Of a stretch of 50,117 nt of DNA, positions 25,741 to 38,171 are shown piece by piece (positions within the stretch are counted from its first letter, which is position 1; each line of letters starts with the position of its first letter). The position numbers and the translations under genes are program-made. The DNA is taken from the NCBI GenBank assembly GCA_016840465.1, contig JAEOSH010000011.1:1-50117 (forward strand), read 5' to 3'. The notes beneath the pieces are model-generated. The model did not search any database. It saw nothing but the letters and a program-made list of their open reading frames with translations, and was not told the origin of the DNA. This stretch comes from Candidatus Baldrarchaeum yapensis. GTDB lineage: Archaea; Asgardarchaeota; Baldrarchaeia; Baldrarchaeales; Baldrarchaeaceae.

Positions 25741-26268
25741 ATGCCACTAATCCCCTTTAATGGTAGAAGGCCAAGAGTCGATGCGACCGCATACGTTTCG
25801 GATCGAGCAGTGCTTATAGGAGACGTAATGGTTGGCAAGTACTCGAACATTTGGGAGTACGCCGTGTTAAGAGCAGATTTTGATAGAATAGAGATAGGAC
25901 GTTACGTAAGTGTTCAGGATAATGTAACATTGCACGCAGCTACGGGGCATCCGACCGTTGTGGGAGATTACGTGGTTATAGGGCATAATGCTGTCGTCCA
26001 CGCATGTAAGGTTGGTAATTACGTATTAATCGGAATGGGAGCACGAGTGTGCACAGGAGCCATTATCGAGGATAACGTAATAATTGGCGCAGGGGCCGTT
26101 GTTCCAGAGGGCATGCGAGTGCCTTCAAACTCGCTGGTGGTAGGGATCCCAGCGAGAGTGGTCAGAGAACTGAAGGAAAGTGATATCAGGAGAATAGAAA
26201 TCGGAGCCAAGATGTACGCAGAGCTTGGTCAAAAATATAAAAGATTGCTCACACGGGAATCATTCTAG
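25741..26268 (+). CDS. Gamma-class carbonic anhydrase-like hexapeptide-repeat protein
   Basis: Left-handed beta-helix protein of the gamma-carbonic anhydrase/YrdA family, expected to be a trimer with metal sites between subunits. The 175-aa product has hexapeptide repeats throughout (IGDVMVG, IGRYVSV, VGNYVLIG) and the three zinc-ligand histidines at family positions: His65 in TLHAATGH, His82 and His87 in IGHNAVVHAC. The C-terminal helix (DIRRIEIGAKMYAELGQKY) is typical. I chose ATG 25741, preceded by GGAGGGATC, instead of the 25-residue extension. Whether it hydrates CO2 cannot be read off; many family members are uncharacterised. Its end overlaps nrdJ by 9 bp, tail to tail. Confidence 0.9.
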   Translation: MPLIPFNGRRPRVDATAYVSDRAVLIGDVMVGKYSNIWEYAVLRADFDRIEIGRYVSVQDNVTLHAATGHPTVVGDYVVIGHNAVVHACKVGNYVLIGMGARVCTGAIIEDNVIIGAGAVVPEGMRVPSNSLVVGIPARVVRELKESDIRRIEIGAKMYAELGQKYKRLLTRESF

Positions 26269-29145
26269 CAAACAACTCGTTCTTTTGCATCCACCGGCGC
26301 TTTCTGCGTCGAGCAGTGGTATTTTGTCTTTATATTTGGATAGTATTTCGATAGTGCGTCTCTCTATTGGTTCGACTCCTCCGAAGAAGATCACCTGCGT
26401 TTTCTTACTTTTATCTCTATACACGGTTATTCCCTTACATTTGAGCTTCCAAGCCAACATGAAAACCTTTGCGACGGTTTCTGGAGGTTCGTCATGGCGG
26501 AGGTTCACAGTCTTAGAAACCGCATTGTCGACGTATTTCTGAAAGGCAGCCTGCATTCTAACGTGCCATTCCGGATCTATGTCATGCGCAGTTTTAAATA
26601 TTCTCTGAACATCTTCTGGGACATCTTCAAGTCCCTGTACACTTCCGTAATTTTCAACGATTTTAAGTAGGAGTTCTTTACTATAGAACCCGCGCTTTTT
26701 GGCAACTTCTTCGAATAGCGGATTTATTTCTATCATACCCCCTAGTATGTTGCGAACAAACACTATGGCGAACAATGGTTCTATGCCACTGGATGCACCT
26801 GCAATTATGCTTATCGATCCTGTCGGGGCAATCGTCGTCACGGTTGCATTTCTCATATATCTATAGCCTAGTTTCTCCCAGAGACTCCCGGGGAAGGCCG
26901 GAAAGTTTCCCCGCTCCTCACCAAGTTTCACACTCGCGTTTCGCGCAGTTTCTGTGATGAATTTCATAACTTTCTCAGCAAGAGATAATGCTTCCTCGGA
27001 GTCATACGGTATTCCCAGTTTTATAAGCATATCCGCCCAGCCCATCACTCCTAGCCCTATTTTTCTTGTCCTTAGGGTTGCGATTTCTATCTGCCTGATC
27101 GGAAACCTGTTGACATCTATGACGTTATCTAAGAACCTCACCGCAAGTTCAACCACGTATTTCATTCTCTCCCAGTTTATGCGTGGTCTTCCCTTTCCGT
27201 CGACCTCCACAAACTTCCCAAGGTTTATACTTCCCAAGTTGCAGGACTCCCACGGAAGTAGTGGCTGCTCCCCACAGTTGTGAACATAGAACCCATTCGC
27301 GTCAAACGCATTCAATCCGAGAATTCTTACGTCATAGACTCTCTCCTCACCGCAGGGGGCAACCTCTTCAACTGTTGCCAAGAAGAGTTCCCGCTTAGGA
27401 TTATATCTGTTGCACTTTACTGCGTTCTCCAGAATTTTCATCTTTTCTTTACTTCCAAAGCCTACCCTTTGGTAGAAGTAAAGCACGTTGTCATCTGTTA
27501 TCGTCAACTCGTATCTGTCCGCTCGTCCGTTTCCTCCGTCGATTGCACGTATTCTGGAGAATATTCCGAATCTTAGAAGGATCCTCTGTACGGCTTTGAG
27601 AAGATCAAGATCATGCTCGGATAATCTAATAGTGACGCTGCCTGACTCGTTTCTTTCCACCAATCCGTTTACGTCAAACAATCCCCTTAAGAGGCCCTTG
27701 CAGAACTCCGATGATGCCTTTTCCATTGCCTCAGTTATTACTCTCTTGCACGTCCTTAATCCAAGTTCCTCCATTATTACTGTGACGTATGAAGGATGAT
27801 TCTGAGATTCTTCCTCGACTATCTGTGCACAGTTGGCGAGAATCTTCCCTACCAGGTAACCATCTTCCACTGAGTATTTTCCGTTCCATCCATTGAGGTT
27901 CCTGTGGTTATTCATGAGGATCTTGTCACCAGGTTTTAGATCTCCAGCTTTGACCCATTCCACTTCGATTCCACGTCTGCCAACTCTTTTTACTCTAAGA
28001 ACCGGATGATCCTTTGTCAGGCGCAGTTCGAATCCCTCTTTGGTTTTAAGCATATAGACCTTCTTTACTCCCGTTGCGAAGAAGCCTTCATCGCCTGACG
28101 GCCATTTTTCGCCATTAACAATCGCAGTAAATCTCCTTCCGATCAGGTCTTTAACCATCCTGGGACCTTCATCTGTCATTATCCACGTATCTGCTGTTAT
28201 GCAGGGGTTTGTCGCTTCTATTTTTCCCAAATGTGAAACGGGGTGCTTTCTGTTGATCTCATCTATAAATATGAGTCCGGGGTCTCCCGTTTTCCATGCG
28301 CACTCTACCATTAGGTTAAATATGTATCTGGCGCGCACCTTCCTTACTTTCTCGCCCGTTCTCGGGTTTATTAACCAGTATTCGCCGTCCTCCTCAACTG
28401 CTCTCATGAAGTCATCAGTAACCGCGACACTTAAGTTGAAGTTCTGGAACTCCCCCTCCTTTTCCTTTGCTCTTACGAATTTCTCGATATCCGGGTGGTC
28501 TACTCTTAATACTCCCATATTTGCTCCTCTTCTCCTCCCACCCTGCTTTATGACCTCCGTGGCCACGTCAAAGATCTTCATGAAACTCACAGGGCCGCTT
28601 GCAACACCCGCGGTGCTTCTAACAATGTCGCCTTCAGGTCTTAGCTTTGAAAACGAGAAACCCGTACCTCCTCCCGTTTTATGAATTAATGCAGCATATT
28701 TTACTGCGTCGAATATTGATTCGAGATCATCCTCTATCGGTATAACAAAGCACGCTGATAACTGTCCTATGTCAGTTCCCGCGTTCATGAGGGTCGGGGA
28801 ATTTGGTAGGAATTCCAAATTAGACATGATCTCGTAAAAGGCCTTTGCCCACCTCTCCACTTCACGTTCGGTCGCTCCGTATTTTCGCTCTGCCCTCGCA
28901 ACGTGTCTTGCGACTCTCCAAAACATCTCTTGTGGGGTTTCTATGATTCTCCCGCTAACGTCCTTGAGGAGATACCTATTTTCCAGAACCCTTAACGCGT
29001 TTAACGAAAACTGTAGATCCTTGGGATTGATGGGCTGATCTCCCTTACCCGCCTGTTCGTAGATTCTCCTGAGTACCTCTAGCTTCATTTCCTCTAACTC
29101 TTCCCGCGTGAATATATGAACCCTGATATTGCCACTTTCCGTCAT
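26260..29145 (-). CDS. nrdJ: Class II (B12-dependent) ribonucleoside reductase with intein
   Basis: Reduces ribonucleotides to deoxyribonucleotides using an adenosylcobalamin-derived thiyl radical. Markers: [19 protein letters not shown] with a redox Cys, [26 protein letters not shown], then NPC, interrupted by a 309-aa intein, and [19 protein letters not shown] after it. [18 protein letters not shown] and a C-terminal GGCKRTSC cysteine pair complete it. From ATG 29145 the precursor is 961 aa and the spliced enzyme 652 aa. The intein lies directly before the radical Cys (624 in the precursor) of the NxCxE loop, so activity needs splicing. GTG 29166 is an alternative start, but the TATA box at 29181-29191 predicts transcription from about 29160, downstream of it. 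Confidence 0.96.
27277..28203 (-). mobile_element. Intein in nrdJ, splicing-competent looking, endonuclease decayed
   Basis: 309-aa intervening protein, precursor residues 315-623. Splicing blocks are intact: Cys1 with CITADTWIM (block A), LTKDHPVL with the Thr-x-x-His of block [22 protein letters not shown]-type block F ending His-Asn, and Cys at +1. Between them are two relics of a LAGLIDADG endonuclease: LVGKILANC, where the acidic residue is gone, and LRGLFDVNG, where the catalytic Asp is Asn. The endonuclease should therefore be inactive and the element fixed rather than mobile. The insertion point is the conserved NP/CGEQ site of ribonucleotide reductase. Confidence 0.93.
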
Positions 29146-29180
29146 AATTACCACTTCTATGTACACCTAAGAATGTGGAC

Positions 29181-35660: not shown

Positions 35661-35758
35661 AACGACACATTACAAATCGATGAAAAATTGAAATACGAAA
35701 ATGGGAAAAATATTGAACCTGGTCGGGCCGCCGGGATTCGAACCCGGGACCTGGCGGT

Positions 35759-35775
35759 ATCTGTCCGAGCAGGGG
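35759..35775 (-). other. tRNA-Tyr intron 2 (17 nt, canonical site 37/38)
   Basis: After intron 1 is removed, anticodon-loop bases CTGT (32-35) pair with ACAG at 35764-35761, and 3-nt bulges AGC and ATA flank this four-pair helix: a canonical bulge-helix-bulge at 37/38. The intron's inner helix is only CC/GG. The exon between the introns is A36-G37 (35777-35776). Confidence 0.65.
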
Positions 35776-35777
35776 CT

Positions 35778-35824
35778 ATTGCTCCTTGGGACCCTCTCTC
35801 ACACCACATCAAGGGTCCCAAGGT
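35778..35824 (-). other. tRNA-Tyr intron 1 (47 nt, non-canonical site 35/36)
   Basis: Contains a perfect 11-bp hairpin CCTTGGGACCC/GGGTCCCAAGG with an 18-nt loop. Flanking bases form a bulge-helix-bulge: 3-nt bulges GTA (35826-35824) and ATA (35779-35777) on either side of GGCT/AGCA (three Watson-Crick pairs, one G-A), closed by GGGC/GCCC outside. Cutting between the second and third bulge base leaves U35 joined to A36. Confidence 0.7.
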
Positions 35825-35861
35825 ACAGCCGCCCGCTCTGGCCAGGCTGAGCTACGGCCCG

Positions 35862-37583: not shown

Positions 37584-38144
37584 CTATCCCTTGTGGGTTC
37601 TCTTAAGCATCTCGTTGATGAGCATGTTGAAGGCTTCGGAAACGTTGTATCCTGTCTTTGCGCTTGTTTCCACGTATTTAGAGAGGTTTAACTCTTTTAC
37701 TGCGTTTTCTCCTGCGCTTTCCGGAACCTTTCTCAGATCATTCATGTCGATCTTATTTCCGACCAGTATTATTGGTATGTTCTTGTCATAAGCCTCCTCT
37801 CTCAGCATATCTATCCATTCAGGTATCTTTTCGAGGGTGTCGGGGTTTGTAACGTCGAAAACTGCGAGTGCGCCATGTGCTCCCCTTATTATGTTGCGAA
37901 TGTGCCTAATAAATAGGTTCTTGAATTTTTCCTGTCCGCCGAGATCCCATATTTGCAGTTTTATCAGTTTGTCTCCCATGGGTATCGGTTTTGTTAAAAT
38001 GTCAACTCCAATTGTTGGCTTGTATTCTACGTCGAAGTATCCGTGGGCGTACCTTCTGCAGAGAGAAGTCTTGCCGACCCCCCATTCTCCCACTATCACA
38101 ACTTTTCTTAGGATTTTTGTCTTCTTTTCTTCACCTAAGGACAT
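37584..38144 (-). CDS. Rab/Ras-like small GTPase
   Basis: 186-aa GTPase with all five G motifs of the Ras superfamily: G1 GEWGVGKT (19-26), G2 Thr44 in YKPTIGVD, G3 WDLGGQE (66-72; Gln71 at the catalytic position), G4 NKID (130-133) and G5 TSAK (160-163). PTIGVD is the Rab-type switch I; WDLGGQE is between Rab (WDTAGQE) and Arf (WDVGGQ). There is no C-terminal prenylation Cys (ends KRTHKG) and no clear N-myristoylation site. I chose ATG 38144 behind GGGGAG rather than ATG 38162. It is cotranscribed with the GDT1-like gene. A roadblock protein and longin-like protein elsewhere in the window belong to families that regulate such GTPases. Confidence 0.9.
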   Translation of the reverse strand: MSLGEEKKTKILRKVVIVGEWGVGKTSLCRRYAHGYFDVEYKPTIGVDILTKPIPMGDKLIKLQIWDLGGQEKFKNLFIRHIRNIIRGAHGALAVFDVTNPDTLEKIPEWIDMLREEAYDKNIPIILVGNKIDMNDLRKVPESAGENAVKELNLSKYVETSAKTGYNVSEAFNMLINEMLKRTHKG

Positions 38145-38171
38145 CTTGACTCCCCGAATCATATTTTTTAA
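38145..38171. promoter_or_regulatory. Compact divergent promoter between the GTPase gene and an unknown gene
   Basis: Only 27 nt separate the two starts. The block ATATTTTTTAAG (about 38161-38172) reads as a TATA element in both directions; for the GTPase it sits about 25 nt before ATG 38144, so that mRNA may be leaderless. Confidence 0.35.

Follow-up and report, generated by a model that had tools for sequence, protein, structure and literature searches.

A tRNA-Tyr gene from an Asgard archaeon best read as two introns around a two-nucleotide exon

Introduction

Archaeal transfer RNAs (tRNAs) with multiple introns, in which the bulge-helix-bulge (BHB) splicing motifs form in an order-dependent manner, are on record (the tRNAscan-SE 2.0 paper, PMC8450103). 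Within the Asgard archaea, PMC11291895 reports that 92-95% of the tRNA genes of Atabeyarchaeia and Freyarchaeia bear introns and that more than half carry several, often at non-canonical sites. Splicing endonucleases of the (alpha-beta)2 type are able to process relaxed motifs (PMC6379350). Described here is the tRNA-Tyr gene located in a stretch of 50,117 nucleotides (nt) from Candidatus Baldrarchaeum yapensis (contig JAEOSH010000011.1, positions 1 to 50,117), hereafter referred to as the window. The gene is best read, at a probability of roughly 0.85, as containing two introns that flank a middle exon of only 2 nt, the splicing of which would be order-dependent.

Neither ordered splicing nor the presence of several introns in one tRNA is new, including in Asgard archaea, and the splicing chemistry is likewise known. 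What is unusual is an exon this small, apparently a former piece of intron. With respect to the multi-intron archaeal tRNAs, the motif is alike and the enzyme presumably so, and the portions of PMC8450103 compared contain no mention of a 2-nt exon or of an anticodon letter carried on such an exon. A 2-nt exon also goes unmentioned in the main text passages of PMC11291895, the gene tables of which lie outside the comparison. The open-access papers covered describe no tRNA exon of 2 nt, nor one of that size that splits the anticodon, and this absence is no proof of novelty because the main tRNA-intron surveys (Sugahara 2007, Sugahara 2008, Fujishima 2010) were beyond coverage.

Results

The gene is encoded on the minus strand and reads directly as a complete class I tRNA-Tyr(GUA), from C1 at 35861 to A73 at 35723, with a C1-G72 pair and with every stem paired. 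The anticodon loop contains 64 extra nt. A preliminary description of the window, prepared from the sequence alone, had placed such a tRNA-Tyr at 35720-35861, and direct reading agrees with this assignment. The gene was not detected by ARAGORN, nor by Rfam at the gathering score; the Rfam tRNA model assigns it 49.6 bits once the filters are made permissive. Among the 40 other tRNA matches of the draft genome (2.27 Mb in 100 contigs, 96% complete), a few multi-intron ones of which were identified only by eye, no second tRNA-Tyr was found. Given that the genome shows no other tRNA-Tyr, the one in the window should be functional.

BHB motifs were sought exhaustively, by enumerating every pair of 3-nt bulges with a 4-nt helix between them. 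The first motif, BHB1, would define a 47-nt intron at site 35/36 and is characterized by the bulges GUA and AUA, an outer helix of GGGC with GCCC, and an inner helix of 12-13 pairs. Its geometry is a strict 3-4-3, but the centre pairs at only three of four positions, with a mismatch between G30 and an adenine. This mismatch was absent from the preliminary description; one central-helix mismatch is present in four other introns of the genome. The second motif, BHB2, would define a 17-nt intron at site 37/38 and displays the bulges AGC and AUA, a centre of CUGU with ACAG that is paired at four of four positions, and an outer helix provided by the anticodon stem. Intron 2 is thereby bounded by a BHB in the defined sense, namely two 3-nt bulges and a helix of four base pairs (bp). 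In the scan, BHB2 was detected only after the removal of intron 1, and its 5' bulge spans the joined AG. The resulting loop is CUGUAGA, and the product displays the features of an archaeal tRNA-Tyr(GUA): C1-G72, A73, GUA, G37, and A38. The 47-nt intron at 35824-35778, the 17-nt intron, the two pairs of bulges, the product loop, and the dependence of the second motif on the loss of the first intron had all been put forward in the preliminary description, and each was recovered upon re-parsing and scanning. Contiguous removal of the 64 nt was also considered and was rejected, as every version leads to C37, U37, or a changed anticodon, and none provides GUA together with G37.

The identity of position 37 was compared across archaeal-type (C1) tRNA-Tyr genes parsed from named genomes and from same-phylum loci. 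All 81 of the other genes carry G37, and A38 is found in all; a C37 in the window gene would be the sole case beside them. The genes of the sister family (L098-L100) run CTGTAG, intron, A, and thus give the mature loop CUGUAGA. The earlier expectation of G37 is borne out by these relatives. A pattern survey limited to tRNA-Tyr genes with a standard D-arm yielded matches ending in G in 98 of 228 same-phylum genomes, and the window gene was the only match in those 228 when the pattern ended in a base other than G. In 398 genomes from the phylum to which L173 belongs (a record named 'Thermoprotei archaeon'), the non-G pattern gave two matches, neither of them inside a tRNA. The sequence UNUAR is the target of Pus7-type enzymes. 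A TruD/Pus7 homologue is encoded in the genome, and UNUAR fits UGUAG but not UGUAC.

When the insert was shuffled, a motif as good as BHB1 arose in 0.14-0.35% of trials. As a natural control, each intron-bearing tRNA-Tyr gene was queried for a two-intron parse yielding CUGUAGA. The window gene scored 13, the best of the 66 other intron-bearing genes scored 10, and among the 30 same-phylum genes (window included) the next best scored 9. These statistics are supportive rather than decisive because they depend in part on a conserved YAGC element that is considered below.

The seven other introns of the genome at site 37/38 are 12, 12, 14, 16, 17, 17, and 17 nt in length, and for this site 17 nt is thus a normal size and 64 nt is not. 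The elongator tRNA-Met (L102, minus strand) contains two introns, one of 27 nt at 30/31 and the other of 17 nt at 37/38. There are two splicing-endonuclease paralogues in the genome. For the catalytic subunit the best match is A. pernix chain 3p1z_B (E 1.5e-47), and the alignment covers the stretch GKPIGIRKPK, which we interpret as the loop specific to Crenarchaea. The second paralogue lacks the conserved stretch HAPFLVH, in which the catalytic histidine lies. Taken together, a catalytic subunit like 3p1z_B and a paralogue without HAPFLVH suggest that the assembly is probably of the (alpha-beta)2 type.

Single-intron tRNA-Tyr genes of the same phylum share a layout in which a hairpin is followed by YAGC or YAGU and then by the 3' splice site. 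Of 30 same-phylum introns, 23 contain the tetranucleotide YAGY in their 3' portion versus 7.9 expected, although the species are related and the counts are not independent. The sequence AAUAGCCCCUGCUCGGACAGAU of the window aligns with CUUAGCCGCCGCUCGGACAAGCAGAC of the sister family, and the AG that is read as A36-G37 in the window is intronic in the relatives, where it lies inside the conserved YAGC element. Like the canonical 37/38 intron of archaeal tRNA-Tyr, the insert displays a hairpin, the YAGC element, and an ACAG-NN end; unlike it, the insert would be divided into 47 and 17 nt around AG.

The sister family (G001-G003) shares the mature loop of the window gene and has a similar intron 3' portion (UAGCCGCCGCUCGGACA vs UAGCCCCUGCUCGGACA). 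It differs in that its tRNA-Tyr, by manual parse, apparently contains three introns (30/31, 37/38, and 43/44), with exons of 7 and 6 nt, and the AG at 36-37 is ordinary exon. An automatic parse of these genes was rejected, as it drew the anticodon 3' strand from the intron; the manual parse retains the universal A38. As in the window, the intron motifs of the sister family overlap on exon sequence, which implies ordered splicing.

The introns of the phylum contain a further element. A kink-turn-like UGA...UGA hairpin is found in 22 of 30 same-phylum tRNA-Tyr introns (L289-L318) versus 2.7 expected. Directly following the hairpin in many of them is GUCAGCC, which by eye complements positions 30-34 beside U35. 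Intron 1 of the window has UGAUGUGGUGUGA at the equivalent place, with the hairpin loop at 35811-35799. No match to guide-RNA families was obtained in Rfam at the gathering score. A guide of the H/ACA type would combine a K-turn or K-loop hairpin with a guide strand beside the target U, and the hairpin and complement of the same-phylum introns resemble such a guide for pseudouridine 35.

The features of the gene are listed in Table 1. The preliminary description had referred to Thermoproteales for context. The lineage markers point instead to the Asgard archaea: the genome encodes eukaryote-like actin homologues with scores of up to 440 bits, and the window contains a Ras-family small GTPase at 37584-38162 (PF00071, E 4.3e-48), as expected in an Asgard genome. 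An intein containing a LAGLIDADG-like domain (Pfam PF14528, PF14890) interrupts the ribonucleotide reductase gene that the window also carries at 26260-29166.

Table 1. Coordinates of the tRNA-Tyr gene and its proposed parts in the window
Feature	Position	Strand	Basis
tRNA-Tyr exon 1, positions 1-35 (CGGGCCG...CUGU)	35825..35861	-	Direct reading and structural parse
Proposed intron 1, 47 nt, site 35/36, mid-anticodon between U35 and A36	35778..35824	-	BHB scan and controls
Proposed mini-exon A36-G37 (AG)	35776..35777	-	Sole parse yielding the invariant loop CUGUAGA; within the conserved YAGC element of same-phylum introns
Proposed intron 2, 17 nt, canonical site 37/38	35759..35775	-	BHB after removal of intron 1; size match with the genome's seven other 37/38 introns
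tRNA-Tyr exon 3, positions 38-73	35723..35758	-	Direct reading and structural parse
Encoded CCA end	35720..35722	-	Direct reading
Intron 1 hairpin, 12 perfect bp (35823-35812 with 35795-35784), terminal loop UGA...GUGA (35811-35799)	35784..35823	-	Intron folding, z = -5.6
AUAGCCCCUGCUC, complement of exon positions 22-35, 13 pairs and one bulged base	35767..35779	-	Minimum free energy fold; duplex z = -3.1, with similar values in the sister family

Discussion

The removal of two introns, in a fixed order, from around a 2-nt exon composed of A36, the third letter of the anticodon, and G37 is regarded as the best reading because it alone gives G37, because BHB1 outperforms the natural controls, and because intron 2 is of the usual size. 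On these grounds the central proposal of the preliminary description appears well supported at the level of sequence. We infer that the archaeal splicing endonuclease would act on the transcript in two rounds. In the first, the anticodon arm would pair through its 5' strand with the insert (positions 26-29 with GCCC and 31-33 with AGC) and would stack on the 12-bp hairpin. The resulting BHB1 would be cut after U35 and before A36, thereby releasing the 47-nt intron. Ligation would then join A36-G37 to U35, and the canonical BHB2 could form. Its cutting would release the 17-nt intron and leave the loop CUGUAGA. Removal of intron 1 first would be obligatory because the 5' bulge of BHB2 contains the joined AG and because both motifs share an exon strand, with BHB1 occupying positions 26-33 and the anticodon stem and BHB2 occupying positions 27-35.

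Folding runs in which the acceptor, D, and T stems were fixed favour this scheme at 37 °C, where the BHB1 outer helix (26-29 with GCCC) has a probability of 0.89 and the anticodon stem one of 0.04. There are also several observations that weigh against it. In the same runs the outer helix reaches 0.43 at 60 °C and only 0.24 at 75 °C, versus 0.26 and 0.33 for the anticodon stem, which at the highest temperature is no less probable than the outer helix. The BHB1 centre, GCU with AGC, is also weaker by ∼3 kcal/mol at 37 °C than the adjacent non-BHB register, UGU with GCA, in an energy model that cannot judge recognition by the enzyme. The unconstrained minimum free energy structure is a third fold, in which positions 22-35 pair with AUAGCCCCUGCUC, and this pairing competes with both splicing motifs and with the cloverleaf. 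In addition, the AG lies in an element that is conserved for another reason, and for this reason its presence alone is no proof of an exon. Finally, the survey of position 37 by pattern reaches only those genes with the standard D-arm.

The pairing of the 3' half of the insert with positions 22-35 had not been seen in the preliminary description. Such complementarity, over ∼11-13 pairs between this exon segment and the 3' portion of the intron, is observed in the window (35779-35767), in L098-L100, and in L056, L059, and L060, and the z values for these genomes are about -2 to -4. As a general archaeal feature it was rejected, with a median z of -0.13 over 67 genes.

A different possibility is that one canonical intron of 64 nt is removed at 37/38, the AG being merely intronic and the mature loop being CUGUACA. 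The gene is indeed collinear with its single-intron relatives in its hairpin, YAGC element, and ACAG end, and a BHB with bulges ACC and AUA and with CUGU and ACAG paired at four of four positions tops the single-motif list of the scan. Such a cut would leave C37, as had been argued beforehand and as both the sequence and the scan agree, and it is here that the explanation becomes unlikely. A C37 is without parallel in the 81 parsed genes, in the 98 genomes with the G pattern, and in the 228 searched for a non-G base; it would break the UNUAR target in a genome that encodes a TruD/Pus7 homologue; and both C37 and the cut site fall within the perfect 12-bp hairpin. Moreover, an intron of 64 nt is far beyond the 12-17 nt of the other 37/38 introns. 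The preliminary description had dismissed the single cut for its poor inner helix. This is fair insofar as that helix, UUGGG with CUCGG, consists of five pairs that are mostly wobble and competes with the 12-bp hairpin, but the motif, with its fully paired centre, is not structurally impossible.

Much less probable still is a pair of introns cut one base upstream, at 34/35, with a middle exon of 3 nt, UAG. A uridine precedes both cut sites, and a slide of one base would lead to an identical mature sequence; the 3-nt bulges GUA and AUA, however, set the cuts at GU/A and AU/A, and the same rule also parses the other introns of the genome. That the gene is a pseudogene or an assembly error, with a normal tRNA-Tyr elsewhere, is the most improbable explanation of all. 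The fragmented and incomplete state of the draft assembly speaks for it, but the arms are all intact and the 40 other tRNA matches, a few multi-intron ones assigned only by eye, include no tRNA-Tyr.

If the two-intron reading is adopted, the origin of the mini-exon can be considered. That it lies within an element conserved in the ancestral intron had gone unseen in the preliminary description. Comparison with relatives suggests an ancestor with one intron at 37/38. From the intronic position of the AG in those relatives, we infer that the 5' splice site, once located behind G37, may have shifted two nt upstream to lie behind U35, and that the lost pair would have been replaced, as A36-G37, by the AG of the intron's YAGC element. 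In our judgment the odds are even that 2 nt of the ancestral intron were recruited as exon in this manner, by fission of the intron around a captured dinucleotide rather than by insertion, making the order of removal obligatory. The alternative to exon capture is convergence of a short repeat.

The gene in the window illustrates that an essential tRNA gene can escape standard searches such as ARAGORN and Rfam at the gathering score. If the two-intron reading is true, A36-G37 would represent an extremely small functional tRNA exon, with the anticodon itself split by an intron, and the gene would offer a clean test case for whether folds that exclude each other allow the archaeal endonuclease to enforce the order of splicing. 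If the proposed capture is also true, the extra tRNA intron would be one of traceable origin, with an old intron having been split around a captured dinucleotide.
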